DNA of 21,875 bases from a virus. The stretch is taken from the IMG/VR virus record IMGVR_UViG_3300042866_000130, positions 1 through 21,875 of that record. One strand, given 5' to 3'. The notes beneath the pieces were generated by a model that did not search any database, was not told where the DNA came from, and saw nothing but the letters and a program-made list of their open reading frames with translations. Of this stretch, positions 1-21,139 are shown piece after piece. The translations under genes and the position numbers were made by a program. Numbering within the stretch: position 1 is the first letter of the stretch; each line of letters starts with the position of its first letter.

Positions 1-3000
1 CTGGCGTAACTTCCGGGGTTGCAACTGGCGTGACTTCCGGGGTTGCAACTGGCGTCACTTCAGGCGTGACTTCAGGCGTAGTTTCCGGTGCTGCAGTAAC
101 CTGTGCAGTGGTTGCAGGCGCAGCCGTGACGTTATTCGCTACAGTTCCGCCTGTCTGCGTGTCTGTGGTCAGATTTACCGTCGAGCCAACATTTACGCCT
201 GTACCAGCATTGACGATCTGCGTGTTGCCAGTCGTGTCTGCCACCAGCACTTGACCTGTTGTCGTGTCTGCGGCAATCACCACGCCAAGATTTGTGCCGC
301 CACCAGTCGTAGAAGTGGCAGCGTTGACGTTGTTGACGAGGTTGGTGGTAGCTGTGTTGACAGTATCAACGCTAGTTCCTGTGGTTGCTGCCAACTGCAC
401 AACAGCTGTAGCAGCAGCGCCACTCGTCACATCGTTGTTGGTGACAAGACCAGTGCTAGCCAAGTTATTAACTGTGTTGTTAATAGCGTTGGCAGTGTTT
501 TGAGAAACCGTCAGCGTGTTGTTGGTCAACCCACTGTTGGTGAGGTTGGTGTTGGTGGTACCAGTGTTGCTAGTGATGTTCCCACCAGTGCTGTCTAGCG
601 TCACCACACTGCCTGCATTTGCACCCGTGTTGTTGTTGACGACAGAAACGACACCACTGTTGTCGATGACCAGCGCAGTGTTGCCAGTTGTGGCAATCAC
701 CACGCCTGCATTCTGAGTTCCTGTTGTGGCGGCGGTACTCGTTTCTGTAGCGGCAGTTGCCGCTGTACCAGTCGGGGCGGTGGCTGACGTACCAGTTCCT
801 GCTGCTGCACCAGTCTGTGTCTCTCCACCAGCAATGACGGACTGTCCAGCCGTGATGCCGCCAGTTGTGGTGCCGCCGATCAACGCCTCAAGAGCGCCCT
901 GCGTTAACGCAGCATCTAGAGATGGAAGCTGGTTGGTGATGGCAACCGCTTCTACCACGCCTTGCCCAAAACCTTCTGCAAACTCAGAAGGTGTTTCTCG
1001 CGTAATAGAACGTGCTGTGCGTCCAGGGATGCCACGAGTTGCAGCTGCTACAAGCTCAGACTCACCAACAGCAGTAGTAACAAGCGTGATGAAGCCAGAA
1101 GCAAGTGCCGCAGGCAAGGCAATAGCAGATGCACGCTCTTCACTAAATCCTCTGTTGATAAGCGATTGCTGCACATTTTGGTAAGTAGCAATTGCAGACT
1201 CACCTGCGTCTAGCGTAGCGTTGGTGCTGACAGCGCCTGCAACACCATATTTGCTAGCCAGTTGCTGACCAAACCTAGCTTTTGTTGCAGCAGAGATGGC
1301 TCGTCCTACGCCAACACCAGCGAGGAGCGGGACAAACTCCTGCACACCTTCGCTGATACCCCAGTCAATGATGGCAGCAGGATTACGAGCAGCAGCGGTA
1401 AGTGCTGCAACACTCTTTCCTAGCAAGCCTTCAACATTGGTAATCTCTTGAATGATCTGGTTTTGGCCTGTGCGAACTGCCGCACTAGTAGCTCCTGTGC
1501 CATAACTCTGAAGACCAGCAGCAACATTGGCAAGATTCTGGTTACCTGTAACGGTAGCGATGTAGCCAAGCTGCTCACCAACACCCTTGGCACCAGCAGC
1601 AGCGACATCACGGAATACATTGCTAGCACCGATATTGCCACCAGTGTTGGCCGTCAGAAGCATGGGCTGACCAGTATCTGGGTCAATCTGCTCGGAGGCT
1701 TCGGTGACAAACTGTTGCTGAAGTCCTCCTTGCTTTTCAGCGTCCGTCATGAACTTGCCGGTAACGCCAAACACTTCCTTGGCGTAAATGCCACGGCCTT
1801 TGTCGTCGTAATGAATTGTTATCTCGCCAAGATTGCCTGCTAGCTCATCTTGAGATGCAACACGGTAGGTTTTGCCACCTTCTTGGAAGTAAACGGCACC
1901 ACCGGACTCAAAGACGTTACCTAAGTTCTCAGGCAGATTCTCAACGGTAAAGACATTAGCTGCGCGAGGAGTCAAGCCTCCAAAGCCAGCACCAGGCGGT
2001 GTGTTGGCAGCTCTCTGTGCAAGCTCTGCTTCTTGATTGTTCTGAATGAAGCCAGCTGCTTCGTTAAGAATTTCTTGTCTTAAACCAGACAACAGTGCAG
2101 GATTGGCTTGCGACAACACCCTCACAGCCTCTAGCTGGTTGAAGGTAAAGATACGCAACCCTGGTGGCAGCATCTGCTGAGCGATCAACACTTCTTGGCT
2201 GTTAGGGTCTACAGCCGCCTCTCCACCTTGGCCACCGCCAGTCCCACCACCACCTTCGCCACCACCCGTGGTCGTCACCGTGGTTCTGGTTTCTGGAAGA
2301 GCAGGCTCGGTAGCCACTCGTGTGCCGGTATCAGGCTGAGATGGCAATGTCTTAATGCCTGCTGTTGATGCAGCAGCACTTTCTTGCCGCACCTGTTCCG
2401 CAACTGCTTGGCCACCACGCGCTGCAAGCTCGCCACCTACAGCGGTCAAAGCTGCCATCGGATCACCACCGCTAGCAATCAGACTCTGCACTGCACGGCC
2501 TGCAGTAGCACCACCTTCAAAAGATGCAGCCGTACCAGCGCCTGCAGCAATAGCAGAAGTCAAAATCTCACTGCCACTCTTGCCCTGTACTGCTGCTGAG
2601 ACTGCAGCATTTCCTGCGTTTGTTAGGATTCTTGCGATGTTGGGGTCATCTACAAGCTCAGAGATAGACGGCCCAAGATTGGGCATACCAGCAGAGATGG
2701 CTGTGGACAACGCCACATCTCGCACTGCGTCATCAAGGCTTTTGCCAGTTGCTACATCTACTGCAATCTTGGCAAGTGCATTACCTACTGTCGTAGCAGT
2801 TGCGCCTGTTAGCGCACCAGCTGCAGCTAACTGAGCAGCAAAGAATTCGCCAAGACCAGGAATTGCAGCAGAAACAAGGATGCCCACGATAGGGCTTTGC
2901 AAGAAACTTTGTTGCCGCTCTACCTCACGGTAAGTCTCATTACCTTCTGGGTCAAGCAAACGAATGTCTAGCAGACCACCCTCAATGCCTTTTCTGATTT

Positions 3001-3745
3001 GAAAAGATTTGATTGGCTCTGCATAGCTAACCTGTCCTTCACGGTCAATGACTTCCGTAAAGATAGGCGTGATTTCCCAGTCCGTGTACTTCTCACGCAG
3101 TTTTGCGATCTGACGCTCTGCATTTGCGCTAGTGAAGTAGCCTAGGTCAGCGTCGTAGTACACGCCACGATCAGTAGACTGCTCATCAACACCACCTGTA
3201 GCGGCAGGCGCGGCAGCAGGCGCGGCAGCAGGAGCCGGGGCTGGAGAGGGAGCCGAGGCTGGTGAAGGCGCAGGCGCAGGTGCCTCCGCTACAAAATCAC
3301 CACCAGTCTCTCGGTCTAACAAAGCAAGAATTTCTTGATCCGAAATATCGGATGCTTGTGCGGCTGGAGCAGGCGCGGGAGCCTGTGTTAAAGCTGCAGC
3401 GGGAGCAGGAGCAGGAGCGGCAGCAGGTGTTTCTGCTTTGAGCAAGTCTGCAGCAATGCTTTGCAGTAGCCGCCAGTTGTCATCCAGAGGAGCGCCTAGC
3501 GAATCTCTGATCTGCTGATCTGTAAAGCCTTGCTTGATAAGCAAGTTGTACAGCGTGGCCTTTTGCTTGGGCGTGCCATTGGCAATGTCTGGCGTAAATT
3601 GGTCACGGATTGCTTTTGCAATCTGCTCTGCAGTCATAACTGGCGAAGGTGCAGGTGCAGGCGCAGCCTGCTCTTGCTCTATAAGAGCAAGCATATCGGC
3701 ATCCAATTGCTCCATTTCGCTTTCTGCGCCTAGTCTTGTCGCCAT
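1..3745 (-). CDS. Giant modular virion protein, candidate internal/ejection protein (3' end outside window)
   Basis: This reading frame is open from an ATG at 3745 to the left edge (at least 1248 residues, no stop seen), so the C-terminus is missing. The start lies 1 base after the upstream stop. In order: a short acidic helix (about 11-26), Ala/Pro linkers (27-35, 105-132, 150-185) separating small helical pieces, a folded-looking segment (187-285) and Gly/Ala-rich hydrophobic helices (about 286-470). A Gly-rich linker follows (about 490-508), then mixed folded regions (510-790), another hydrophobic helical stretch (about 800-970), a Thr/Asn/Gly-rich region with two copies of a GVVIA-type module (about 1013-1055 and 1150-1195), and VATPEVTP tandem repeats at the edge. 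I recognise no enzyme motif. Size, position after the fibre genes and amphipathic or hydrophobic stretches suggest an internal virion protein that enters the cell with DNA, as in podoviruses. This is inference; a giant fibre or structural filament is the alternative. Confidence 0.75.
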   Translation of the reverse strand, partial: MATRLGAESEMEQLDADMLALIEQEQAAPAPAPSPVMTAEQIAKAIRDQFTPDIANGTPKQKATLYNLLIKQGFTDQQIRDSLGAPLDDNWRLLQSIAADLLKAETPAAAPAPAPAAALTQAPAPAPAAQASDISDQEILALLDRETGGDFVAEAPAPAPSPASAPSPAPAPAAAPAAAPAATGGVDEQSTDRGVYYDADLGYFTSANAERQIAKLREKYTDWEITPIFTEVIDREGQVSYAEPIKSFQIRKGIEGGLLDIRLLDPEGNETYREVERQQSFLQSPIVGILVSAAIPGLGEFFAAQLAAAGALTGATATTVGNALAKIAVDVATGKSLDDAVRDVALSTAISAGMPNLGPSISELVDDPNIARILTNAGNAAVSAAVQGKSGSEILTSAIAAGAGTAASFEGGATAGRAVQSLIASGGDPMAALTAVGGELAARGGQAVAEQVRQESAAASTAGIKTLPSQPDTGTRVATEPALPETRTTVTTTGGGEGGGGTGGGQGGEAAVDPNSQEVLIAQQMLPPGLRIFTFNQLEAVRVLSQANPALLSGLRQEILNEAAGFIQNNQEAELAQRAANTPPGAGFGGLTPRAANVFTVENLPENLGNVFESGGAVYFQEGGKTYRVASQDELAGNLGEITIHYDDKGRGIYAKEVFGVTGKFMTDAEKQGGLQQQFVTEASEQIDPDTGQPMLLTANTGGNIGASNVFRDVAAAGAKGVGEQLGYIATVTGNQNLANVAAGLQSYGTGATSAAVRTGQNQIIQEITNVEGLLGKSVAALTAAARNPAAIIDWGISEGVQEFVPLLAGVGVGRAISAATKARFGQQLASKYGVAGAVSTNATLDAGESAIATYQNVQQSLINRGFSEERASAIALPAALASGFITLVTTAVGESELVAAATRGIPGRTARSITRETPSEFAEGFGQGVVEAVAITNQLPSLDAALTQGALEALIGGTTTGGITAGQSVIAGGETQTGAAAGTGTSATAPTGTAATAATETSTAATTGTQNAGVVIATTGNTALVIDNSGVVSVVNNNTGANAGSVVTLDSTGGNITSNTGTTNTNLTNSGLTNNTLTVSQNTANAINNTVNNLASTGLVTNNDVTSGAAATAVVQLAATTGTSVDTVNTATTNLVNNVNAATSTTGGGTNLGVVIAADTTTGQVLVADTTGNTQIVNAGTGVNVGSTVNLTTDTQTGGTVANNVTAAPATTAQVTAAPETTPEVTPEVTPVATPEVTPVATPEVTP
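2..85 (-). repeat. In-frame tandem repeats at the window edge
   Basis: Two 24-base units (2-25 and 26-49) differ at one base and encode VATPEVTP on the minus strand. They are followed by degenerate 12-base units encoding PEVT. The array preserves the reading frame of the giant protein and probably continues beyond the window. Such Pro/Thr/Val repeats usually form an extended stalk or linker. Confidence 0.85.
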
Positions 3746-6317: not shown

Positions 6318-6743
6318 TCAAATCACTGACGCCGCTTCTAGCGTCAAAGAAGAAGTGGTGTAAACAGTCAGAGTAGAAGCGTCCCTGATTTCTAGTGTCA
6401 ACTGAGCCGTTTCGGTCAAGCCAGAAGTACCGTCCACAGAAACACTCCATGTCCGATTGCTGCTCAAAGCCAACCATGACCCAGTAGTTCCCGTCGGAGA
6501 ACCAGAGACAACTGTGGCGCGGATTTCGTAATCACTACCAGTTCCGGTTCCCGTCAGCCAAATGCCATTAGGTCTGGAATCATTGCTTGCCGAGGTGTAG
6601 GTTCCAGCACTGTTAACCGAAAACGATGCCGTCAACGTACCAGATGTTCCAGAACGATAGACATAAGGCGAACCGGGCAGCGCGGCCCCTCTAGCGGTAG
6701 GAGGCGTTTTAGCCCCCACCAACATCGTCATGATCCCGCTCAT
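6318..6743 (-). CDS. Beta-rich tail accessory protein, unknown
   Basis: A 141-residue Ser/Thr-rich protein whose ATG overlaps the stop of the large fibre-like gene (ATGA). A second in-frame ATG four codons later (MTMLVGAK) could also be used. Residues 30-141 alternate polar and hydrophobic residues, as in an immunoglobulin-like or jelly-roll fold (GTYTSASNDSRPNGIWLTG, YEIRATVVSG, AQLTLEIRD). No catalytic motif is visible. Tight coupling to the fibre gene suggests a fibre tip, adhesin or fibre-assembly role. This is inference from position and composition. Confidence 0.75.
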   Translation of the reverse strand: MSGIMTMLVGAKTPPTARGAALPGSPYVYRSGTSGTLTASFSVNSAGTYTSASNDSRPNGIWLTGTGTGSDYEIRATVVSGSPTGTTGSWLALSSNRTWSVSVDGTSGLTETAQLTLEIRDASTLTVYTTSSLTLEAASVI

Positions 6744-8617
6744 GACACGTTCCCCGAGATGACACAGACCGTTCCGCTGATGAACAGGATCGTTGCCACG
6801 CCACGGGTTGCAAGCGTTACAGAAGCCTTGTCTGCATCAGTTCCTGCAATGTACGCAGTGGTGATCGTACAGGTGATCGTGATGTTGCCAGAAGTATTGT
6901 TGAAGATGCTCACCACATCCCCAGTAGCGAAGGTCGCGTTAGGGATCGTGATGCTGCCGCCAGAACCGACTTCAATGTAGTCACCCACATCCGTCGTGGC
7001 CAGGGTGTAAGAACCCGTCTTGGCAGAACCCGACTGAGGAACCCCACGGAAGCCAACCCTAGAAGCAGTACCGGCAGCGTCCATGAAGAACAGATCGCCG
7101 GATGAGGAGTACAGAGATACGCCGTTGGTCAGCGTACCCGCAGGGGCAGTGCCATTGAAGATTTGGAGAGCGTTGGTGCCAACCGTAGTTCCACGGTTTG
7201 CCGTGCCGCCGAGGGAGAAATTGCCTCCATCAGTCAGCGTCATCAAATCCGTCGTGGTAGATGACGCGCGCTTGCTGAACGCAAAACTGTATCCAGTGCC
7301 GTCCCCCATATAGATTCGACTGATGGGGGCTTCGTAACTGAACAGCATTGGGCCCTGAGCAACGGACAGCGTTGCCGAGGACGTTACGGTAATTCCACCC
7401 TGAACAGTCAGTTTCTGCCCCGGCGAAGTTGTACCGATACCCAAGTCACCATCAGCATCAAGCGTCATCACCTGCGTGAAGGTGGCGGTGGTTCCTGCTG
7501 TGCCGGAGGAGGCGTTAAACCATTTAAATGTGCCGCCCTCTAATCGGTAAAAACCCGCCGCAGCAGTCGTTTTGTATGTGGGAACACCGCCGCTATTAAC
7601 GAATGCGTTATGCCAAATATCTGTTACGCTGCTACCAGTGTTATTTGCAAATGACGAAAGATTTCCTGCGTCAAGCACTCTCCATGTACTACCCCAAGCA
7701 CTCGGCGTCACCCCCAGACCGAGGTTGCCGGAGGTATCAAACGTGCCAATAATGTTGCTGTTTGTGAGGATTTGCAGGCTGTGATTCGACAGCGTACCGA
7801 TTGCGCCTTGCGTTGTGTACGTAATTCCTGTCTTGATTGTGCCGTCACCGATAGCAATAACGCCGCGCACATCCAACTTGTACGCAGGCGAACTCGTCCC
7901 AATGCCCAACCCGGTAGAGGTCAGGCGCATTAACTCGGATGCGTCTTGTTGGAAAATCAGGTTTGGAACAGTGCCAGACGTACGGGTAACTTGAATAACA
8001 CCGTTAGTTCCAGAAGTTGTTAGTCGAATCCTCTGCGCGTTAACAGCATCCCCGTTAAATACGTCTAAGGTAGTGCCCGCTGTGGATGCGCCAATAGATA
8101 TATTTCCAGAGGGTAAAGTTAAAGTCGTACCGTTAAACGTCAACGCCGACCCCGTGGTCAGCACCTTTGACGCATTGAGGTAGGCCACTCCGTTGGCGGT
8201 TCCTCCGTTGATCGTGACCGTCGAGGAAGTGGTCAGGGTGGTGACGTTGGCTGTGCTAGCAGTCGTGGCTCCCAGCGTGGTGCCGTTGATGCTGCCGCCC
8301 GTGATAGCCACGTTGCCGCTGCTCATGTTCGTCACATTGCCGGTGGTAATGTTGGCAGTGGTGACGTTAGCCGTTGTGGCAATGACTGTCGCGGCGTTGA
8401 GCGTGGTCACGTTGGCTGTGGTCACAGACACGTTTGTGATCGTGACATTGCCGCTGCTGATGGTCACGTTAGCCAGCGTCATGTTGTTGAGCGTGGTAAC
8501 CGTGTTGCCCAGCTGAATAGCGGTATTGCCCAACGTGATGGGCGTGTTGAAGTTGGAGTCCAGCTGCGACAGCGGAATAGAAACAGTCGCGTTGGCAAAA
8601 GAATACGGGACAGTCAT
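6740..8617 (-). CDS. Large tail fibre-like protein
   Basis: A 625-residue Gly/Ser/Thr/Asn-rich protein. Residues 1-25 form a conserved-looking N-terminal anchor (MTVPYSFANATVSIPLSQLD), followed to about residue 120 by NVT/ANVTT repeats that suggest a fibrous shaft. The central region has three or four GLGIGT(S/T)SP.KL-type segments, a motif common in phage tail fibres. The last ~100 residues (from GSAKTGSYTL through ITIPNATFATGDVVSIFNN to the C-terminus) match a C-terminal beta domain found in many environmental phage fibres. No S74 autoprotease is visible. The start is 1 base after the nozzle stop, with GAGG seven bases before the ATG. Its position directly after the nozzle gene fits a fibre attached to the tail hub and used for host recognition. 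Confidence 0.85.
   Translation of the reverse strand: MTVPYSFANATVSIPLSQLDSNFNTPITLGNTAIQLGNTVTTLNNMTLANVTISSGNVTITNVSVTTANVTTLNAATVIATTANVTTANITTGNVTNMSSGNVAITGGSINGTTLGATTASTANVTTLTTSSTVTINGGTANGVAYLNASKVLTTGSALTFNGTTLTLPSGNISIGASTAGTTLDVFNGDAVNAQRIRLTTSGTNGVIQVTRTSGTVPNLIFQQDASELMRLTSTGLGIGTSSPAYKLDVRGVIAIGDGTIKTGITYTTQGAIGTLSNHSLQILTNSNIIGTFDTSGNLGLGVTPSAWGSTWRVLDAGNLSSFANNTGSSVTDIWHNAFVNSGGVPTYKTTAAAGFYRLEGGTFKWFNASSGTAGTTATFTQVMTLDADGDLGIGTTSPGQKLTVQGGITVTSSATLSVAQGPMLFSYEAPISRIYMGDGTGYSFAFSKRASSTTTDLMTLTDGGNFSLGGTANRGTTVGTNALQIFNGTAPAGTLTNGVSLYSSSGDLFFMDAAGTASRVGFRGVPQSGSAKTGSYTLATTDVGDYIEVGSGGSITIPNATFATGDVVSIFNNTSGNITITCTITTAYIAGTDADKASVTLATRGVATILFISGTVCVISGNVS
8190..8530 (-). repeat. 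Degenerate repeats encoding NVT/ANVTT shaft
   Basis: Imperfect repeats with the recurring plus-strand core GTGACGTTGGC or GTCACGTTGGC, encoding repeated NVT triplets separated by 2-10 residues. They lie inside the N-terminal shaft of the 625-residue fibre. The repeats could expand or contract by recombination or slippage and so change fibre length. Confidence 0.7.
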
Positions 8618-8618
8618 T

Positions 8619-10865
8619 TCAGAACCTCACTCTTAGTTCGTGTTCCATCTCGAACGTGTTGACGACAAAGCCTGGGCCAGTGCTCGTGAGCGTCAAACCT
8701 AGATACTTTCCATACTGCTGGGCATCTGACTTGTACAGGTAGTACCCAGACACCGTAAGCCACCCAACCGTCTCCATCGCATTGTTAGTCCATTCAACCG
8801 TGTTGCCAAGGTTGTTAACCCAGTTGATGAAGTTCTCAGCGGTGTATGTCGGACTAGAACCAGTTTCACTGTCTACCGTGACATTCAGCGTAGCCGGATA
8901 GGTGAGTGTTGCCTCAATACCAAACTTCAATGCCTGCTTGGTGCGGATGGGGTCACCCAGCGGCATGAGCGCAGTGCGGATGGTGCTGTTGATGTTGGCC
9001 GCAGGGTCTGCGTACAACTGGTACAGGTCGGTGTCATCCACCCCGTAGAGCTTGATCGTTCCCCCAAACGGCACAGAAGTCACATAGTCAATGCTTCCTT
9101 GACTCGTGACAAACCACTTCTTGTCGAAAAACACGGCCTGAATCTGCCGTGGGGTTGCAGGAGTGGTGGTTGGGTCGTTGTAGGTGAAGTTGAAAGCCGC
9201 ACACAGGATGTTGTTGATTAGCACCTGCCCACCTGTAATCGGCTCGTTAAAGTCGATGTTCAGGAAGATGCCATCCAACGGGTCTGACAGCTTGCTGGTG
9301 GTAGAACCCACCAGTGCGTACATCCCGTAGTCGTTCATGAACAGCAAACTGCGGAAGTACGGGAAGATGGCGTCTGTGCGGCCTGTTCCGATACTGGCGC
9401 TGACGTTGGTGTTCGTAAACAGCGTGGTACCTTCTGGAGTCACACGCAGGTCAGAGATGATGTTGATGCTCGTTTCGCCAAAGATGTACAGGAAGTTGTT
9501 GGCAGAAACGATAGCCCTAATGTTCCCGCGCAGGGTGGAATCACTCAACGTGAGTGAGCCTGCGGAAACAGAAGTGAAGTCAGTCGCACTGTCTGCAGCT
9601 GAGTAGTACAGGGTTCTCCCTGATGCCACCCAAACACGACCACCGAATGTCGCTACATCCTGCACATCGTCGGTGTTGACGATAGCCTTGGCTGCTGCGT
9701 TGCTGCCGCCACCACCTGTAATCGTGACCACCACGTTGGAGTTGGCGGTGTAGCCTGCTCCTGGGTTTGTCATGATGACTTGGTTGACGGTGTTGCCGCT
9801 GACGATGGCAGTGGCGTTGGCCTGCGTGGTGTAGCCCGTAGCGTTACCGATGGTCACCACCACGTTGGCTGCGTTGCTGTAACCAGTGCCGCCACTCGTC
9901 ACCACCACAGAGACGGTGCCCTTCTTGAAGGTGGTCAGCTGTGAAATGGCAGTGGCATTGGTGCCGCCTGGGCTAGCCTCAATGGTGACGCTAGGCGGTG
10001 AGGTATAGCCTGAGCCTGCTTCTGTCAGGAAGATACTCGTGACAGAACCCGTGCTGATCGTGGCTATGGCATTGGCATTGGAGCCACCACCGTCTGTGAT
10101 CGTGACGGTTGGTGTCTTGATGTAGCCGGTACCTGGTTCTGTAACGGTGACAGACACCACGTTGCCACTGGCAAGCGCAGCTGTAGCCTTGGCGGTGATG
10201 CTGCCTGCGATGTCAGGAGCGGAGATCGTCACTAGCGGGACAGAGGTGTAGCCGCTGCCGGGAGCATCTACGGTGATGGCGCGGACTCCACCAGCTGCGG
10301 TGGAGATGGTGGCCTCTGCCAGAGCCTGTACGCCATTAGCCTGGTTGGGAGCCGAGATGGTGACCAACGGAGCCTGCGTGTAGCCAGAGCCTGGGTTGGT
10401 GATTCCGATAAAACCTACGGAATTGCCACTAACCAGGCTTGTGCCATTCCAGTTGTACAGCCCGTTCTCAGGGTCTGCGATGATGACCCGCTCGTTCTTG
10501 TACTGAGCGGTATTGGCATCACCACCGGAGAACGTGCCACTGGAGGCTACGTTGCCTTTTGTCTGTGTGGTGAGGTCGAAATACTGTGCTGCGCCGTTCT
10601 CGCTGAAGACAATGATGTAGTCATTGAGGTCGATGTTGGCAGAGCTGATGTGCGTGACCGTGTTGCCAAACACCACATTGTTGGCGGTGCTGTCTACGGT
10701 CTGCTTCTGGGCCTGGACGATCTTGATGTTGCCAAACCCGATGGGCATGGCGTTCTCAATCCAGGCAAACTCTTTTTCGTCAATCGCAGTACGGTTAGCC
10801 TTGGTGTTAATACCAAGGAAGTTCTTGATGACAGCGTAGGACTTCTTCTGCTCAGCCGCTGCCAT
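8619..10865 (-). CDS. Tail nozzle / head-closure-like protein with repeat insertion
   Basis: A 748-residue protein. The N-terminus (1-60) has VIKNFLGINTKANRTAIDEKEFAWIENA, typical of proteins sealing podovirus heads. Residues 80-145 and 400-748 look like beta-propeller blades (YIIVFSENGAAQYFDL, RVWVASGRTLYYS, FLYIFGETSINII), in the style of the P22 gp10 / T7 gp12 nozzle class. Between them, residues 155-395 form six repeats of about 42 residues, each with GxGY and an xVTI strand (GxGY near 159, 203, 245, 284, 326 and 369). The gene follows the adaptor gene by 3 bases and precedes the fibre gene, the expected place for a nozzle. Its Shine-Dalgarno is weak (only AAG close to the ATG), so it may be translated by coupling. 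The nozzle role is inferred from order and pattern, not from a search. Confidence 0.75.
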   Translation of the reverse strand: MAAAEQKKSYAVIKNFLGINTKANRTAIDEKEFAWIENAMPIGFGNIKIVQAQKQTVDSTANNVVFGNTVTHISSANIDLNDYIIVFSENGAAQYFDLTTQTKGNVASSGTFSGGDANTAQYKNERVIIADPENGLYNWNGTSLVSGNSVGFIGITNPGSGYTQAPLVTISAPNQANGVQALAEATISTAAGGVRAITVDAPGSGYTSVPLVTISAPDIAGSITAKATAALASGNVVSVTVTEPGTGYIKTPTVTITDGGGSNANAIATISTGSVTSIFLTEAGSGYTSPPSVTIEASPGGTNATAISQLTTFKKGTVSVVVTSGGTGYSNAANVVVTIGNATGYTTQANATAIVSGNTVNQVIMTNPGAGYTANSNVVVTITGGGGSNAAAKAIVNTDDVQDVATFGGRVWVASGRTLYYSAADSATDFTSVSAGSLTLSDSTLRGNIRAIVSANNFLYIFGETSINIISDLRVTPEGTTLFTNTNVSASIGTGRTDAIFPYFRSLLFMNDYGMYALVGSTTSKLSDPLDGIFLNIDFNEPITGGQVLINNILCAAFNFTYNDPTTTPATPRQIQAVFFDKKWFVTSQGSIDYVTSVPFGGTIKLYGVDDTDLYQLYADPAANINSTIRTALMPLGDPIRTKQALKFGIEATLTYPATLNVTVDSETGSSPTYTAENFINWVNNLGNTVEWTNNAMETVGWLTVSGYYLYKSDAQQYGKYLGLTLTSTGPGFVVNTFEMEHELRVRF
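9681..10403 (-). repeat. Six ~42-residue GxGY/VTI protein repeats
   Basis: Six in-frame repeats encode (N/A/E)PGxGY..xPxVTI modules with Gly/Ala/Asn-rich linkers, at a spacing of about 117-132 bases. Protein similarity is clear and DNA similarity is partial. They are located inside the nozzle-like gene. Confidence 0.85.
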
Positions 10866-10868
10866 GAC

Positions 10869-11711
10869 TTAAATCTGCGAGTATGGATTGGGGATGCGGC
10901 GGGTGTACACGGAGTTAAGCACTCCCTGCACATCCTTGAGGTACTGTTGTTTGAAGATTTCCGCTTCTCCGTAGCTCTGCTCCTTGTACTTGGCCTTGTA
11001 GGCTGCGTAAAACTGAACAGGGTTGGTATACGGAGCCTTGATCTCGTCAACCACGTTGGGGGTTGCAAGACTCAAAGGCAGCGGAAGCCGCACGGTATCG
11101 ACTTCGATGGTGTACGACTGGTCTGGTACGGGCGAGATATAGATGGATTTCTGCCCGTAAGTGGAGAAGCACACGGGCCTGCCCACGTAATTTTGCCAAT
11201 AACGAACCTGTGCGTTGAAGTCAGACCACGCCAGATAGCGCAGCGGAATGCGTGAATTACCCCAGTAAAGCGTAACGTTCAGTACATCCAGCGTCTCATC
11301 TCCTTGCGGCAAAGCCGAGTATGGGATGATTTCAGCATTGGCAGCATAGCGCAGCGTGGCTGTGCCATCCGTGAAGTTGGTGCTGGGCGGGAAGACATTG
11401 GCCCCACTGGGATAGGGAGGCGCAGAAGTGCCGAGCACACCGCCCGACACCACTTCGTAGATGAAGATGTTGGAGAAGATGTAGCTGCCAGTCGTGACAG
11501 TTGCACCTTCTGCCCAGATGGTAGCCGCTGTGCCGTCAGGTGCTAGAGGCGTGTAGGAAATCTGCAGGGTACGCAGACAGCCGGTGTCGCGTACTACCTC
11601 TTCCCTAGCCTCGTTGATGTAGTCGGTTAGTTCCGACTCGCTCCAAAAGACGCTATTTGCATCGTGCAAGAGGCGTTGCACTTCCAACAGATAGGAAGAT
11701 AGTGTTGCCAT
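10869..11711 (-). CDS. Head-tail adaptor (connector) protein
   Basis: A 280-residue protein. The N-terminus (MATLSSYLLEVQRLLHDANS, then FWSESELTDYINEAREEVVRDTGCLR, residues 1-46) is a helical pattern I associate with podoviral adaptor proteins, which bind the portal and receive the nozzle (T7 gp11 / gp6-like class). The middle (about 60-190) is beta-rich, and the C-terminus (200-280) is helical again with AAYKAKYKEQSYGEAEIFKQQY. The start is 12 bases after the upstream stop, with only a weak GGA seven bases before the ATG. The following nozzle-like gene supports the assignment. A ring of 12 copies below the portal would be expected from the family. Confidence 0.75.
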   Translation of the reverse strand: MATLSSYLLEVQRLLHDANSVFWSESELTDYINEAREEVVRDTGCLRTLQISYTPLAPDGTAATIWAEGATVTTGSYIFSNIFIYEVVSGGVLGTSAPPYPSGANVFPPSTNFTDGTATLRYAANAEIIPYSALPQGDETLDVLNVTLYWGNSRIPLRYLAWSDFNAQVRYWQNYVGRPVCFSTYGQKSIYISPVPDQSYTIEVDTVRLPLPLSLATPNVVDEIKAPYTNPVQFYAAYKAKYKEQSYGEAEIFKQQYLKDVQGVLNSVYTRRIPNPYSQI

Positions 11712-12815: not shown

Positions 12816-13817
12816 TTACAGGGTGAGGTAGTTGTAGCCCGTCACTTTGGACATCGCCTTGGGTTTGACGTTCACCAATTCGGCAATCATCAAAACCGCG
12901 CCGACGTAGCCAATCTGCCAGTTCGGCAGGGTGCTCTCGAAGCCCGTGAACACGAACGAACCCTGCTCATGGATGTAGAGCGACAGGTAGTTAGTGTTCA
13001 GGAAGTACACCGTGCCTTCCGGGCAGTACGGATCGGGATAGATCGGCACGCCAGCCACCATCAGGGCGCGGAATGCAGCCTGCGGCCCGTTGGGGTCGCC
13101 GTCGAATCCAGAGCCAGGGGTGATGACGTACTGCTCTTGACCCACGAAGTCTTGGGCCAACAGCGTCCAGGTACCGAAGCCGCAAACACCGAAGCTGGGC
13201 ATCTCAGCGCCGTTCTTCACGGTACCGGAGATGTACTGCAGGATGTTTTGACGGGTCGGGTTAACCGAGCCTGCAGCGTACTGCTTGCTCTTCCACCAGG
13301 TATAGGTGGAGCGGTCAATGTTGCCGTACGTGCCGGAATCGGCCACGGCCAGCGGCAGACCAGTAAACTGCTGCGTGTTGGTCGTGTTGTTGTACAGCGA
13401 GGTGGCCATTGCGTCCATCATCACGTTGGTCGCATCGTTCATGCGAGCCTCGATCAGAGGGATAACGGCTGCGTCTTGCTGAACGGCACCTTCCATGCCC
13501 AGGAAAGGCACGGGAGAGATCATCAGCTTGAGGTTGAACTCAGCGTTGTAAGCGCCTTGCTGGACGGACGGCTGGGCGAACGAGCCGCTGTAGTCAGACC
13601 ACTGAGCATTTACGAACTGAGCGCCCTGCACGGGCACGACCACGGAAGAGACACCGCCGGAGGCTTGCTGACTGTTGGCAATCAGTGCCGCCATAAGCGG
13701 AGTCGAGTTGTACAGCTGTACAACCATCTTGGGAATAAAGGCCCTCCGTGTGACATAGGTCAACTCGGTAAGCTGAGTTGAGCCTGCTGCCGGGAGGATG
13801 CCACCACCAATAGCCAT
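12816..13817 (-). CDS. Major capsid protein
   Basis: A 333-residue protein with a strong ribosome binding site (AAGGAGG four bases before the ATG). Features fit an HK97-fold coat protein of short-tailed environmental phages. An N-terminal arm contains ELTYVTRRAFIPKMVVQLY (18-36). FTGLPLAVAD lies at 151-160, the domain FGTWTLLAQDF at 214-224, and GVPIYPDPYCPEG and YFLNTNYLSLYIHE at 256-284. There is no obvious N-terminal delta domain, consistent with the separate scaffold candidate encoded just upstream. The shell assembles around the portal. The family call rests on recognised residue patterns and gene order. Confidence 0.9.
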   Translation of the reverse strand: MAIGGGILPAAGSTQLTELTYVTRRAFIPKMVVQLYNSTPLMAALIANSQQASGGVSSVVVPVQGAQFVNAQWSDYSGSFAQPSVQQGAYNAEFNLKLMISPVPFLGMEGAVQQDAAVIPLIEARMNDATNVMMDAMATSLYNNTTNTQQFTGLPLAVADSGTYGNIDRSTYTWWKSKQYAAGSVNPTRQNILQYISGTVKNGAEMPSFGVCGFGTWTLLAQDFVGQEQYVITPGSGFDGDPNGPQAAFRALMVAGVPIYPDPYCPEGTVYFLNTNYLSLYIHEQGSFVFTGFESTLPNWQIGYVGAVLMIAELVNVKPKAMSKVTGYNYLTL

Positions 13818-15280: not shown

Positions 15281-16954
15281 TTATTGGATGAGGGGCATAT
15301 CTGCTGACATCCCGCCGCCAGCCTCTTGGGGAGGCTGCGGGATAGATTCTGGAGGAGGCTGCTTGGCTGCTGCGGCTGCGGCCTGCGCGGCAGCTTCCTT
15401 CTCTTCCATGATCTTCAGGCGCTCCTTGAGCTGCTGCTTCATGGGAGGATCGACCAAATCCAGCAACGACTCCTTGTCGATGACCTTGGCGCTGTAGAGC
15501 GAGAAAGCCATCTGGCGCATATCTTCCATGAAGATTGGCGAGTTGGAGTGAGCGTCCACTTTCACCATAAAGTCGGTGGTGAACTGATCTGCAACAAAAG
15601 GCACGCCTTGCGTGTCTTTGTAGTGAGTCGGGCTGTACAGCTGCATGGCCTTGAGGTACAGCGTGGCCATCTTCTCCAGCGCATCTTCAATGATGAGCGC
15701 ACGCTTCTTGGCGCGGCTGGAGCCTAGACGAGCAAGTTGAGAAGCATGGCCCGAAGAGCGAACCCCAGCTTCTCCCCGGCCTTGAAGTACGGACACGATT
15801 CCCGATGCCTCTTCAAACATCAGGTCAATCTCACCGATTTCTCTGAACAGGTCGTTAGGAATGTTCGGGGCCAGCTTCTCAACCTTTGCGTTGGGCATAT
15901 CGGTGGAGAGCAAGCCGCCTGCGCGGTTGAGCGCAAAGTTCTTCTCGTCCAACAAACCCGTGAACCCGATGAGCGCAGTAGGCGGCGAAACTTGCTTGCT
16001 CAGCAGGTCTAGGATTTCAGCCATGCGCTTGTTGCGGAGTTCTTGCAGGTAGACCAGGCGCGAGACTTCGCTGGCACCCCAGAAGTAGTCGTACAGCGGA
16101 TTCGGGCAGACCTGAATGAAGGGAAGCTCGCCCTTCATGAACATGGTTTCGTTGGGACGGTCATAGATGATGACGTCCGGGTCTGCCTTGGTGATGACTT
16201 GGTAGTCCTTGATGTCGTCGTCGTAGACGTAGAGTTCGATCATGCGAACCGTGTCTTCCGAGACTTGGGCCTTGTAACGCTCGTTGCCGCTGAGGTCGAG
16301 GTTGACGTTGCCGTACATCGTCGGGTTGGTCTGAGACATCAGGATGCGCTCGACACCCTCGGGACTGTCAGTGCGCTGATGCTCTGTGGCATTCACGCGC
16401 TTGACGATCTCTTCCCGGCGCGGGTGGCTGTACAGGCGTGCGTACAACTCACTCTTGGTGATGTAGTATTCCTGGATCAGTGCTTCTTGTGCGCTAAGGT
16501 TGGGGATGTCCTCGCGCAGCACGCCGATGCAGCTCGGCTCCACCAAGAACGGGTGGATGCCCTTGTTCATCACGAGCTTGATGAACGTGGAGTTGTAGCA
16601 CAGCGACCAAGTGACGGCTTGGGAGAAAACCTGGTCTGCGTTGGAGTTGGCCCACTCGTCATTGAGAGCGCGGGTCAACACCGGAATCTTGGTGTGCTCA
16701 GCGTCAGGCACAGCTGCGCCGGTGACGATGGAAAAGCGTGTGGTTTCAGCCGAATACAGAAAGCTCGTGAGCTGGTCGATATGCGGCTGAATCTTGTTGT
16801 AGATGGCTGGGGCCGAATCAAGCCCCGAGCCAAACATGAACCATGACCGAAGACCCAGATAGTCGGCTTTGCGAGAGTTCAGGGAAACTTCGCACTTCTC
16901 GATGAGGTCGAGATAGAACTGCTCGCGCTCTAGGTGATCGGTCGGGATTCTCAT
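15281..16954 (-). CDS. Portal protein
   Basis: A 557-residue protein. The size and pattern fit a podoviral portal: N-terminal helices with Asn/Trp/Phe-rich segments (WFMFGSGLDSAP, 38-49), QLTSFLYSAETTRF (61-74), the WSLCYNSTFIKL segment (116-127), DDDIKDYQVITKADPDV (245-261), NPLYDYFWGASEVSRLVYLQ (285-304), and a long helix with RAKKRALIIEDALEKMATLY. The C-terminus is Ala/Pro/Gln-rich. Start ATG overlaps the previous stop (ATGA). Twelve copies would form the DNA channel at one vertex, binding TerL during packaging and the adaptor after. It lies 5' of the scaffold candidate and capsid genes, the usual order. Identification is by residue pattern and order. Confidence 0.85.
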   Translation of the reverse strand: MRIPTDHLEREQFYLDLIEKCEVSLNSRKADYLGLRSWFMFGSGLDSAPAIYNKIQPHIDQLTSFLYSAETTRFSIVTGAAVPDAEHTKIPVLTRALNDEWANSNADQVFSQAVTWSLCYNSTFIKLVMNKGIHPFLVEPSCIGVLREDIPNLSAQEALIQEYYITKSELYARLYSHPRREEIVKRVNATEHQRTDSPEGVERILMSQTNPTMYGNVNLDLSGNERYKAQVSEDTVRMIELYVYDDDIKDYQVITKADPDVIIYDRPNETMFMKGELPFIQVCPNPLYDYFWGASEVSRLVYLQELRNKRMAEILDLLSKQVSPPTALIGFTGLLDEKNFALNRAGGLLSTDMPNAKVEKLAPNIPNDLFREIGEIDLMFEEASGIVSVLQGRGEAGVRSSGHASQLARLGSSRAKKRALIIEDALEKMATLYLKAMQLYSPTHYKDTQGVPFVADQFTTDFMVKVDAHSNSPIFMEDMRQMAFSLYSAKVIDKESLLDLVDPPMKQQLKERLKIMEEKEAAAQAAAAAAKQPPPESIPQPPQEAGGGMSADMPLIQ

Positions 16955-17455: not shown

Positions 17456-17848
17456 TTACCCTCGCAGTGCTTCATCTAGGTCAGGTTGTTGATAGTCGTG
17501 GCGGTTGACCATGCCGACACGGACTTTGATGCCTTGCGGCGTCAGTTCCAGCTTGGTGGAGGGCATGAGAGGCGGCTTGGCCTCACGCCGGTAGTCCACA
17601 AAGCGGGTCTGGTCACGGTTTTGCATGATCCGTACCCGTCCCCGCAGCCATTCGTTGTAGCCTTTGCTCACTCTGATCTGCACCATCTCGCTCAGAGGCG
17701 CTTTCTTGTACAGAAACACGTCTTTGAAGGTCTGGGTGCCTATGCCGCACAGCTCGCAGAACAGTTTTATGCTGATTCCACGCTCTTTATCGGCGTGAAA
17801 CCGCTCCATAAGCCTGAAAAGCTCACTTTTTGGCCATATTTTGGTCAT
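17456..17848 (-). CDS. Possible helix-turn-helix protein, unknown
   Basis: A 130-residue basic protein. I choose the ATG at 17848, which overlaps the methyltransferase stop in an ATGA junction; a TTG four codons earlier is weaker. Residues 25-55 (ISIKLFCELCGIGTQTFKDV, then FLYKKAPLSEM) fit the spacing of a helix-turn-helix with a G-I turn. A basic segment follows (RVRIMQNRDQTRFVDYRREAK). The region 90-112 may form beta strands (TKLELTPQGIKVRVGM). It could be a DNA-binding protein. A small-terminase role is possible since it shares the packaging block, but it lies downstream of terL, which is not the commonest order. Uncertain. Confidence 0.75.
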   Translation of the reverse strand: MTKIWPKSELFRLMERFHADKERGISIKLFCELCGIGTQTFKDVFLYKKAPLSEMVQIRVSKGYNEWLRGRVRIMQNRDQTRFVDYRREAKPPLMPSTKLELTPQGIKVRVGMVNRHDYQQPDLDEALRG

Positions 17849-18366
17849 TTTTGACCCCAAAAGTAGAGGTCTTTAGACCCCTCATTTACGCTGAATTCAT
17901 GCTTCAAAAACAGCTTTTTGAGGTCAAAAGCAGCCTCAAAGTCCTCTTTTGTGAGGTTTTTGTAGTAATCGTTGGTGAATGGAGCATCGAAAGGGTTGCT
18001 TTTGGTCGTCCCGTGCTCTGCTCTACCCGTTGTAGCGCAGGAAAAGATGACAAGACCGTTGTCTTTGACCATCTCGACCATCTTGAGGAAGGTCTTTTGC
18101 CAGTTCTTGTCGTGCTCGAAGCACTCGCAGGAGATGGCCACATCAAACTTGTCGGCAAAAGGCAGCTCGTGCCCTGCACACACGACGTCTACGCCGGGGC
18201 CAGGGCCGAGATCACACCCGACGTACAGACTTGGCTCGTAGAAGAACTGCCGCACAGAGCCGTTGATGTCTAGCGACCCCACTTCCACCACCTTGGTGTG
18301 CCGGAAGTGCCAGGGGAAGGTACGGGTAAGGCTTGCGACAAAGCGCATTTGCTCAGGATGGCTCAT
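17845..18366 (-). CDS. Class I SAM-dependent methyltransferase
   Basis: A 173-residue compact methyltransferase. Motif I is VVEVGSLDING (26-36), which binds the amino-acid part of AdoMet. The acidic residue at the end of strand 2 is D52 (VGCDLG), followed by a strand 3 region (VDVVCAGHELPFADKFDVAI). Motif IV-like DVAISCECFEH spans 75-85 and is followed by a helix-strand unit (FLKMVEMVKDNGLVIFSC). No N4/N6 DNA-methylase DPPY or C5 PCQ motif is present, so a DNA restriction-modification role is unlikely. The start overlaps the end of the upstream glycosyltransferase-like gene by 14 bases, with GGAG four bases before the ATG, so the two are coupled. The substrate is unknown; glycan, lipid or protein is possible. 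Confidence 0.85.
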   Translation of the reverse strand: MSHPEQMRFVASLTRTFPWHFRHTKVVEVGSLDINGSVRQFFYEPSLYVGCDLGPGPGVDVVCAGHELPFADKFDVAISCECFEHDKNWQKTFLKMVEMVKDNGLVIFSCATTGRAEHGTTKSNPFDAPFTNDYYKNLTKEDFEAAFDLKKLFLKHEFSVNEGSKDLYFWGQK

Positions 18367-19147
18367 AACACTCCAACACGTAGTCCTTGGTCTGCAGCCA
18401 GTCCAAAAACTCCATCTCTCGATAGTAATTGCTCACTTCTGAGAGTGGTGCCTTGATCTTGATGTAGTTGTATGAGGTGAGTTTGCGGGTAGGGGCGTGG
18501 TGTCCTACCAGCTTTGAGAAGTCGATGTCGTCGTGAAAGCCTGGGCCTGCGTATTCCATGCTGAAGTTCTTGGCCACCTCTATGGGTGCGAACTTGATGC
18601 CGTGCTTTTCTAGCTCTGGACGCAGCCAGGTGCACAGCTGCACGTCTTCGTTGCAGAACGGTTCTACGTCAAAGTGCTTCCACAGGATGCCGCTCTTGGA
18701 AGGCTGGCGCAGGAACTTGCGAGAGCGCAGAGAGAAGCCGCCATTCTGGACAACAAGTGCCTCTGGTTGGCCAATCCAAGTGAAGTGGGTGTAGTAGTTG
18801 TTTCCGACCATCGCTGCGTGGGCAGGCGCACCCACATAGTCGTACTGGTAGTAGTCCTCGGTGAAGTTCTCACCGTTGAGCACCCAGCCGTCGTCCTGCA
18901 CGATGAGGCAGAACTCGGTCTTGATGTAGGTGTGCAGGCAGTACATCACGAAAAGGCTGTACTGCTTGTAGGTCATCTTGTGGCACTTCTTGTGCCGGAT
19001 GTGCTTAGGAAGGTTGCGCGGCCTGCGAGGCGAGATCAGCAAGCCCTGAGCACCAGGAAGTTCTAGAAGAGAACGCTCCAGAGATGGAACCGCGCTCTCC
19101 CCGCTGTTGTGGCCGTAGATAGCCACGACTGTTAGTTTGTCATGCAC
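18353..19147 (-). CDS. DUF5672 family glycosyltransferase-like protein
   Basis: A 264-residue protein. I choose the GTG at 19147, which overlaps the terL stop by 8 bases and puts the conserved KLTVVAIYGHN at the N-terminus; upstream codons lie inside terL. Features match my memory of DUF5672: LIVQDDGWVLN (81-91) with the acidic pair D85/D86, YDYVGAPA (102-109), NGGFSLRSRK (135-144) and CNEDVQLC (165-172). The order of strand, DD, YIGAP and GGFSLRS fits GT-A type glycosyltransferases that use a metal ion. The true substrate is unknown. It is followed by a methyltransferase, an arrangement often seen in polysaccharide modification. Presence in a phage packaging operon is unusual. It could modify a host surface glycan or a virion component. 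Confidence 0.8.
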   Translation of the reverse strand: MHDKLTVVAIYGHNSGESAVPSLERSLLELPGAQGLLISPRRPRNLPKHIRHKKCHKMTYKQYSLFVMYCLHTYIKTEFCLIVQDDGWVLNGENFTEDYYQYDYVGAPAHAAMVGNNYYTHFTWIGQPEALVVQNGGFSLRSRKFLRQPSKSGILWKHFDVEPFCNEDVQLCTWLRPELEKHGIKFAPIEVAKNFSMEYAGPGFHDDIDFSKLVGHHAPTRKLTSYNYIKIKAPLSEVSNYYREMEFLDWLQTKDYVLECYEPS

Positions 19148-20903
19148 TGCCGTACATCCCGATCTTCTTGAGGTAGTCGGCCACATTTCGCCCTATCTGG
19201 GCTTCCTGCACCGTCATGTTGTCTTGGGCTTGGGAGATGTTGCGGGTAATCTTGGCCGCTATCAGCCGAGGCTGCACCTGCTCTGCAAATGCAACAGCTG
19301 CCAGCGCAGAAGCAATCACCCGGTCATCCTTGGCCCTGCCTGGAGCGTGGATGGTGCCGTTTTCCCGCACGATACCCTTCATTTCCTCCAGGGTGTCCAT
19401 GCTCTTGATCTCCATCATCCCGCGCTCGAAGTAATCCTTCATGTAATTGAGCATCCGCTCCTTACTGGCGTGGGTGGTGACGTAGCCTATTGAGTTGGAG
19501 ATGCCACCCAGTGCGTCGTTACGCCTCCAGATGTAGTTGGTCATGCTGCCGAGCACGTCCAGCAAGCCACGCCCTGTAGCGTTGTTCATGCTCACAGCCA
19601 TGCGCTTCAAGTTCCTGATCTCGTTGATGACAGCCTGACCAGGCCCGTTCACCTCCAAGTTCAGCGTGGAGTTCTTGTAGGCACCTGCGAGGTGGGCGAT
19701 GACCCAGGCGAACTGGTAGGTATTGAGTTCAGAGGTGGCGAACTCGGCCACTTGCTCCATCCCGTCTGCGTAGCAACGGAAGACCTGGATGCAGAAACGG
19801 TCTGCCCAGTCAGAACTGCCGTAAGCCGGGTCTGCTCCGATGACGTAGTAGGCGTTGTCTACAGGCTCTTCCCAGACCTTCAGGACACCAAGCCGCTCTG
19901 TGCTCTTGAGCACCTCCGTGTCTTGGAAGAGAGAACCGAAGGCATAGCGATAGTTGTCAGGCACAAGCAGCTTGGAAGCCTTGGCTGCTTCTGTACACCG
20001 GGAGGTGGAGAAGAAGGAGGTGCCTGTCATCACGAAGGCGTAGTCCTCCGTGGGTGGGAACTCCTGGTACATGAGCGCCTCGTCCTTGATGCCCTCGTGC
20101 ATCTTCCAGCGCCACCAGGCCATCTGCCGGGAGTTGATCTCAAAGTTGTACAGGCGCTTGATGTCCTTGTGCCACTCCTTCTCTTCAGGAGTCAGCTTGC
20201 CGTCCCAGTACACCTTGTAGATGTTGCTCTTGGCATCCACGCTGTAGAACTCGTTACGCCACCAGCCGCAGAAGATCGCACGCTGGGTCTTGGCCCTCTG
20301 AGCCGTCTTGTACATATCGTGGAACATATTGAACCCACGGGCTGTGGACTCAAACAAGTACAGCCGGTCAGGATTGTTCTCGGCTAGGGAAGCCAACAGA
20401 GAAGCCAGACCCTCCTCGTCACCCCAGGAGCTTGTCTCCGTGCCGTGAAGGTATGTTATGGCCTTGCCACGGCCCAGTGAGCCTTTAGCGCGTAGTCCCG
20501 CCACCTGATAGAACAACCGACTTCTGTTCTTGAGGGACAACTGGTTCCTGTTGTGCCCTATTGCCGGAATCTTGAACTCCTTGGGCAAGCCATCCATATA
20601 CATGGACAGCGTGGTGCGGAACATATCCCGGTTCTCTTCCGTATCCGTCGTAAGCGTTCCCTGCAAACCCGGATGCGTGAAATGCCAATAAAGGTCTAGG
20701 GCTAGGGAAATGGTCGTAATCCCCAACTGCCGACCCTTCAAGATCACAAAGAAATGCACATCCTCAGCCAATCCTTTTGCAATCTCATCCATCACATACG
20801 TCTGAGTGCCCAGAAGATGATCCATCTTCCGCAAGCCCTGCTCCTTAGTCTCAATCTTGAGTTCAGAGCAAAAGCTGTAGAACTTGGCTAAATCAAATTT
20901 CAT
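19140..20903 (-). CDS. terL: Terminase large subunit (DNA packaging ATPase/nuclease)
   Basis: A 587-residue protein. I choose the ATG at 20903, which overlaps the upstream stop by 1 base; a TTG at 20924 lies inside the upstream gene. ATPase half: Walker-A-like GRQLGITT (57-64), ITYLHGTETSSWGD (149-162) as Walker B with catalytic Glu E156, and the FESTARG (184-190) coupling segment. Nuclease half: GADPAYGSSDW with D358, LEVNG with E417, and AKDDRV with D526/D527 as the metal-binding acids. Length is usual for the family. It packages DNA through the portal into proheads and cuts the concatemer. No inteins or frameshifts are seen. It is followed by an 8-base overlap with the glycosyltransferase-like gene. 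Confidence 0.95.
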   Translation of the reverse strand: MKFDLAKFYSFCSELKIETKEQGLRKMDHLLGTQTYVMDEIAKGLAEDVHFFVILKGRQLGITTISLALDLYWHFTHPGLQGTLTTDTEENRDMFRTTLSMYMDGLPKEFKIPAIGHNRNQLSLKNRSRLFYQVAGLRAKGSLGRGKAITYLHGTETSSWGDEEGLASLLASLAENNPDRLYLFESTARGFNMFHDMYKTAQRAKTQRAIFCGWWRNEFYSVDAKSNIYKVYWDGKLTPEEKEWHKDIKRLYNFEINSRQMAWWRWKMHEGIKDEALMYQEFPPTEDYAFVMTGTSFFSTSRCTEAAKASKLLVPDNYRYAFGSLFQDTEVLKSTERLGVLKVWEEPVDNAYYVIGADPAYGSSDWADRFCIQVFRCYADGMEQVAEFATSELNTYQFAWVIAHLAGAYKNSTLNLEVNGPGQAVINEIRNLKRMAVSMNNATGRGLLDVLGSMTNYIWRRNDALGGISNSIGYVTTHASKERMLNYMKDYFERGMMEIKSMDTLEEMKGIVRENGTIHAPGRAKDDRVIASALAAVAFAEQVQPRLIAAKITRNISQAQDNMTVQEAQIGRNVADYLKKIGMYGSA

Positions 20904-21139
20904 TAAGGCTTTTCCAATACCCAATCCGCTATTGCCAGCGCCACCCTCCTGTTACGGGCAACCCTCAACAACTCTTCCCACACGATGGGCGGGTAATCCC
21001 GTTTCCACCTATTCACCAACTTAATCTTCTGCGCCTTCCTAATGCACAGTAGCGCAGCCCTGGTTTCCCGCTGCAGCCGCACCCGAGATTCGTAAAGCTG
21101 CATCTGAATATCCCGATATGTATCCGTCCCGGGCTGCAT
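20903..21139 (-). CDS. Small helical protein just upstream of terL, small-terminase candidate
   Basis: A 78-residue basic, helical-looking protein (MQPGTDTYRDIQMQLYESRV, then CIRKAQKIKLVNRWKRDYPP). The ATG at 21139 has AGGA six bases upstream; a TTG two codons earlier is possible. Its stop overlaps the terL start by 1 base, the position typical of a small terminase subunit. It is shorter than most TerS proteins and lacks a recognisable winged helix, so the call is tentative. It overlaps the 72-residue ORF upstream by about 100 bases. Confidence 0.6.
   Translation of the reverse strand: MQPGTDTYRDIQMQLYESRVRLQRETRAALLCIRKAQKIKLVNRWKRDYPPIVWEELLRVARNRRVALAIADWVLEKP

Follow-up and report, generated by a model that had tools for sequence, protein, structure and literature searches.

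Several tail nozzles of the podophage type are known to carry additional domains on their propeller. For phage SU10, the published structural account describes a nozzle protein, gp17, in which four Ig-like domains are inserted between blades 2 and 3 (PMC9509320). The same account reports that these domains straighten on infection and that, together with the short fibres, they extend the tail by 277 Å, that three tryptophans dock the trimeric fibre, and that sequence similarity between the SU10 and T7 nozzles is undetectable (PMC9509320). In T7 gp12, a tip domain is described as coming out of the blade-3 loop (PMC6702177), and the crAss001 muzzle is described as having two Ig-like domains below its propeller (PMC10172136). 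In the light of these precedents, as far as the three sources describe them, we cannot follow an earlier note, made from the DNA sequence analysed here, in doubting that an insertion between blades is standard for the P22 gp10/T7 gp12 type. The insertion itself is ordinary; what is new in the nozzle reported here is its building material, a GxGY repeat, and an even arithmetic in which the repeats come in pairs.

The window, that is, the whole stretch of DNA analysed, corresponds to the complete IMG/VR virus record IMGVR_UViG_3300042866_000130 (21,875 bases). Its minus strand carries a head-tail gene cluster coding for terminase, portal, major head protein, adaptor, nozzle and fibre (Table 1). 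We know of no virion, host or solved structure for this phage group. The nozzle gene adjoins the adaptor gene within this portal-capsid-tail cluster, in which adaptor and portal have matches to the corresponding SU10 Pfam families. Two other genes, coding for a methyltransferase-like protein and a DUF5672 protein, lie between those of the terminase and the portal (17845-19186, minus strand). At the left end of the window, a 1248-aa frame (2-3745, minus strand) runs off the sequence; it has an Ala/Pro-rich start, an Ala-rich middle and a Thr/Asn-rich, PEVTP-like end, and could encode an internal virion protein or an ejection protein.

Table 1 Features of the head-tail gene cluster and of the nozzle gene, in window coordinates (r1 to r6, repeats in order; aa, amino acids)
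Feature	Position	Strand	Basis or remark
Terminase	19140-20924	-	Head-tail cluster of the window
Portal protein	15281..16954	-	Pfam SU10_portal, E 8.5e-10
Major head protein	12816-13817	-	Head-tail cluster of the window
Adaptor (head-tail connector)	10869..11711	-	Pfam SU10_adaptor, E 1.4e-13
Tail nozzle protein, 748 aa	8619..10865	-	ORF; predicted fold matches the Pa223, P22 gp10, SU10 gp17 and T7 gp12 nozzles, Z 19-27
N-terminal platform strands and first two four-stranded blades, residues 1-147	10425..10865	-	DSSP; grouping ours
Repeat r1 (residues 149-187), N-terminal half of domain A as proposed	10305..10421	-	Best position for the first repeat in 52/57 four-repeat and 15/19 two-repeat relatives
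Repeats r2+r3 (residues 188-271), proposed to form domain B, nested in A	10053..10304	-	Missing as one block in four-repeat relatives; insert residues 45-124 covered by fold matches
Repeat r4 (residues 272-311), C-terminal half of domain A as proposed	9933..10052	-	Best position for the second repeat in 55/57 four-repeat and 12/19 two-repeat relatives
Repeats r5+r6 (residues 312-396), proposed to form domain C	9678..9932	-	Missing in two-repeat relatives; insert residues about 165-252 covered by fold matches (best Z 6.3)
Remaining five propeller blades, residues 397-640	8946..9677	-	DSSP; conserved in aligned relatives
C-terminal platform, residues 641-748	8622..8945	-	DSSP
Loop 678-706 with Trp682, Trp692 and Trp702, proposed fibre dock	8748..8834	-	Triad in 228/229 relatives
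Tail fibre, conserved N-terminal anchor and variable remainder	6740..8617	-	Comparison to downstream ORFs in 97 relatives

Searches with the nozzle protein found no match in Pfam or NCBIfam and nothing useful among the sequences of solved structures, and a profile comparison with the SU10/PaP4-type nozzle family was not significant (hhalign, probability 0.4%). The AlphaFold2 model of the full-length protein, based on 74 aligned relatives (pLDDT 86.1), matched solved nozzles at Z 19-27 over 402-481 residues, including those of Pseudomonas phage Pa223 (Z 27.3, 441 residues aligned, rmsd 3.1), P22 gp10 (Z 25.3, 425 residues), SU10 gp17 (Z 24.9, 452 residues) and T7 gp12 (Z 20.8, 443 residues). 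Unrelated propellers matched 266-309 residues of the model, with Z values of up to 20.9; because of this overlap Z alone does not separate the T7-type matches from unrelated propellers, whereas the aligned length does. DSSP assignment on the model, with a grouping of the strands that is our own, gave two four-stranded groups before the insert (residues 70-107 and 118-146), five groups after it (about 401-439, 451-488, 500-525, 544-587 and 594-631) and further strands at both ends. The predicted fold identifies the 748-aa protein as a podophage-type tail nozzle, and the strand count supports an insertion in its propeller; the nozzle-like propeller proposed in the earlier note, with propeller-type strands before and after an array placed between blades, is thereby recovered. 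In this model, the insert would occupy an inter-blade loop preceded by two blades and followed by five, or would come after blade 3 if the velcro blade is counted as blade 1.

The insert contains six GxGY motifs, at residues 159, 203, 245, 284, 326 and 369 (spacing 44, 42, 39, 42 and 43), paired in order with the strands LVTI, LVTI, TVTI, SVTI, VVTI and VVTI. Both the number of repeats and their location given in the earlier note (9681-10403, residues 155-395) proved exact. Shuffling the whole protein yielded 0.29 GxGY motifs on average and at most 4 in 20,000 shuffles, and shuffling the insert only yielded a mean of 0.12 and a maximum of 2. In the DNA, the copies have diverged to the point that only short direct-repeat families are found (61-94% identity), so the repetition is ancient and preserved at the protein level, which sets it apart from a recent tandem duplication.

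Among known nozzles, SU10 gp17 (PDB 7z47, 7z4b, 7z4f) resembles the window protein in having a platform, a seven-bladed propeller and domains inserted between blades (Ig-like in SU10 and tentatively so here), as well as a three-Trp loop (the fibre dock in SU10, a proposed one here) and neighbouring genes from similar adaptor and portal families. However, its four Ig-like domains have no GxGY repeats and its insertion would lie one blade earlier, according to our motif reading of SU10 aligned with insert-free relatives. T7 gp12 likewise has a propeller with a tip module from the blade-3 loop, but this tip is a β-barrel and not a repeat array. P22 gp10 (471 aa) and the Pa223 nozzle (512 aa), among the best whole-model fold matches, are shorter than the window protein by about the length of the array. 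P22 gp10 aligns over 420-425 residues and Pan3 (445 aa) over 402, and neither has room for the repeats.

We collected relatives from seven scans of viral contigs, one scan of genome contigs and two phage records, obtaining 476 loci with a nozzle ORF. From each viral-contig scan, which had up to 598 relatives, the best 80 were kept, so less common forms may have escaped. Only two near relatives came from the phage collection, and four loci, all in MAG contigs, from the bacterial genome collection. Once 17 ORFs without the scored N-terminal part and all identical sequences had been dropped, 351 distinct full-length proteins remained. As scored, 63 of them have two repeats, 202 four and 86 six; one protein devoid of most of its N-terminal domain (L232) scored two but carries four, which corrects the split to 62, 203 and 86. 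None of these 351 proteins, drawn from the best 80 of up to 598 per scan, has an odd or zero number of repeats. The length between the two propeller parts, measured independently of any repeat model, also falls into steps (70-80, 140, 160-170 and 240-250 residues). A previous count on 240 proteins had given odd or zero numbers for 11: L232, eight proteins with an extra module, and L038 and L169, which one-by-one inspection showed to have six and two repeats, respectively (contig-edge or filter cases). The stricter repeat-match filters (model coverage) of the 351-protein count were chosen after seeing that previous result. The earlier note had also considered that the repeats might be an integral part of all family members; this is true of the near family, where each of the 351 full-length relatives carries two or more, and not for the wider nozzle fold, to which P22 gp10 and Pan3 belong.

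The eight proteins with an extra module (L216, L238, L239, L241, L245, L251, L252 and L259) are two-repeat forms with an inter-domain length of 135-140 residues and a different 60-residue module inside r4. A similar module of ~60-70 residues occurs in the adaptor of the window (residues about 65-125) and in that of L082, though not in that of L081, with the motifs W..., Y.V, TAP or SAP..., and NGT or DGT.TL.Y. It may be a mobile surface module common to tail proteins.

Position-specific models trained on 15 six-repeat proteins identified the repeats that are kept in the shorter forms; L172 and L203, for their extra weak match, and L216 were left out of this analysis. In 57 four-repeat proteins these are r1, r4, r5 (53 proteins) and r6 (56 proteins), and in 19 two-repeat proteins they are, less cleanly, r1 and r4 (counts for r1 and r4 in Table 1). 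When applied to six other six-repeat proteins placed elsewhere in the tree, the models recovered the exact six-position order in three, the others deviating at r2, r3 or r5. From these assignments, the units gained or lost are r2+r3 and r5+r6.

The same units are suggested by the predicted structure of the insert, which folded alone with a pLDDT of 93.9. Foldseek found no match to it in the PDB at E 0.001, and the 22 matches to solved folds listed by VIA-align were weak, the best being T4 gp18 (Z 6.3 over 74 residues) and all others listed having Z <3. Eight of the 22 lie at r2+r3 and ten at r5+r6 (ranges in Table 1), and three fit no pair. One FnIII match spans insert residues 4..164 with 73 residues aligned (Z 2.3), as expected if r1 and r4 form a single split domain, and several other matches listed are, going by their titles, to Ig, FnIII or IPT domains. 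The deletion pattern agrees with these ranges, the segments gained or lost coinciding with whole fold-match units. Tentatively, each pair of repeats might thus be one Ig-like domain, with domain A made of r1 and r4, domain B (r2+r3) nested in A, and domain C made of r5 and r6; the name of the fold is a lead, and the split domain A is suggested by the Z 2.3 match and the deletion pattern.

Could the even numbers instead be an accident of ancestry, namely a few old events widely inherited without any structural pairing? The sequences counted are related and, if only well-supported branches are considered, the changes in repeat number that are forced amount to only 3 per group in a tree of 100 representatives (C-terminal part only) and to 4-8 in a tree of 124. 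Nevertheless, parsimony on the former requires at least eight changes, all even; the tree of 124, made by a quick method and containing one long-branch row (L253), gives 15, a total inflated by the inclusion of L232 as miscounted. In the tree of 124, a four- and a six-repeat protein (L110/L311) are 85% identical in their C-terminal part. As the segments that come and go also match whole fold units, we consider shared ancestry by itself a very improbable explanation.

A different possibility, put forward in the earlier note, is that the array is a receptor-binding appendage, which would determine host range. The array is expected to lie on the surface, cyanophage tail fibre and baseplate proteins contain similar repeats and, in terms of mean pairwise identity among 22 six-repeat proteins, domains B (57%) and C (62%) are more variable than the blades (73%). 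However, conservation of r1 (75%) equals that of the blades and conservation of r4 (65%) that of the N-terminal part (64%), and the hypervariable exposed part expected of a receptor-binding protein was not found in the array of these 22 proteins. It is the neighbouring gene that has the usual fibre pattern: in the window fibre, the first 25-60 residues are conserved (N-terminus VPY.FA.AT..IPLSQLD.NF) and the remainder is variable. Among the downstream ORFs listed for 97 relatives, 92 match this fibre; in 89 of these the match starts within the first three fibre residues and mostly covers <150 residues, and in three it involves the C-terminal part instead; those listed measure 96 to 998 aa, some being ended by contig edges. 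Given the conserved anchor and variable end of the fibre and an array only modestly more variable than the rest of the nozzle, receptor binding probably resides in the fibre, and a receptor-binding role for the repeats appears quite improbable. The repeats might also provide a surface to which other parts of the virion, such as the fibre base or the capsid vertex, bind or against which they pack, without any role in ejection. GxGY repeats do occur in several different cyanophage virion proteins, and nozzle domain 4 of SU10 is described as touching the short tail fibre (PMC9509320). Yet changes in array length come in whole pairs of repeats, against a constant fibre N-terminus and a constant Trp triad of the nozzle, which is not suggestive of one fixed contact and makes this role improbable too. 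The triad has a 10/10 spacing in 227 of 229 relatives, in a loop that is overall only 48% identical among the 22 six-repeat proteins and that, by analogy with SU10, is a possible fibre dock. It was rejected as the same site as the SU10 triad (839, 847, 857), since the latter is at a different place in the chain: it lies at the edge of the propeller, ahead of the C-terminal platform part, and the window triad is within that part.

We therefore favour, with a probability of about 0.72, a nozzle with a paired-repeat, Ig-like tip that plays a role in DNA ejection. In such a nozzle, the platform would seat on the adaptor, the seven-bladed propeller would line and gate the channel, and the tip inserted in the inter-blade loop would project distally and lengthen the DNA-ejection channel, with host recognition sitting in the separate fibre encoded downstream. 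The tip would consist of β-sandwiches of about 80 residues, one per repeat pair: A, always present; C, following A in the four- and six-repeat forms; and B, placed between the halves of A in the six-repeat forms. Its likely function is that of a distal tail tip of adjustable length, the pairs being building blocks to lengthen or shorten it, and it may rearrange at host contact as the Ig-like domains of the SU10 nozzle do. A more specific version, in which nested two-repeat Ig-like domains are gained or lost whole (1, 2 or 3 per subunit), setting the reach of the channel through different host envelopes and possibly straightening upon infection as in SU10, is speculative and rather unlikely.

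The family has already been deposited, roughly named: UniProt A0A6J5L2T0 (uncultured Caudovirales phage, 738 aa), a relative whose insert matches that of the window protein (44% identity over 250 columns), is called 'Bacteriophage P22, Gp10, DNA-stabilising'. In the literature that we searched, we found no analysis of its repeats and no description of a GxGY-repeat nozzle tip. The repeat region matches 366 of 50,697 phage records at E 1e-5, 360 of which are named Synechococcus or Prochlorococcus phage or cyanophage; the proteins matched include the gp7 baseplate wedge initiator, a neck protein and tail fibres (31-52% identity among the matches listed), and there are also matches to PHROG tail and head families and to viral predicted structures. 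These cyanophage regions have the same repeat type as the window nozzle, but in a different protein and tail type. One nozzle relative (L082, MW202753.1, 7059-9047) is annotated as 'baseplate wedge initiator', probably because it has GxGY repeats in common with cyanophage gp7.

A repeat type of cyanophage virion proteins thus works here as a two-repeat building unit, and its sharing with those proteins may explain the misnaming of such nozzle genes. The large natural series of otherwise similar nozzles with one, two or three proposed tip domains provides a means to ask what a nozzle tip does.
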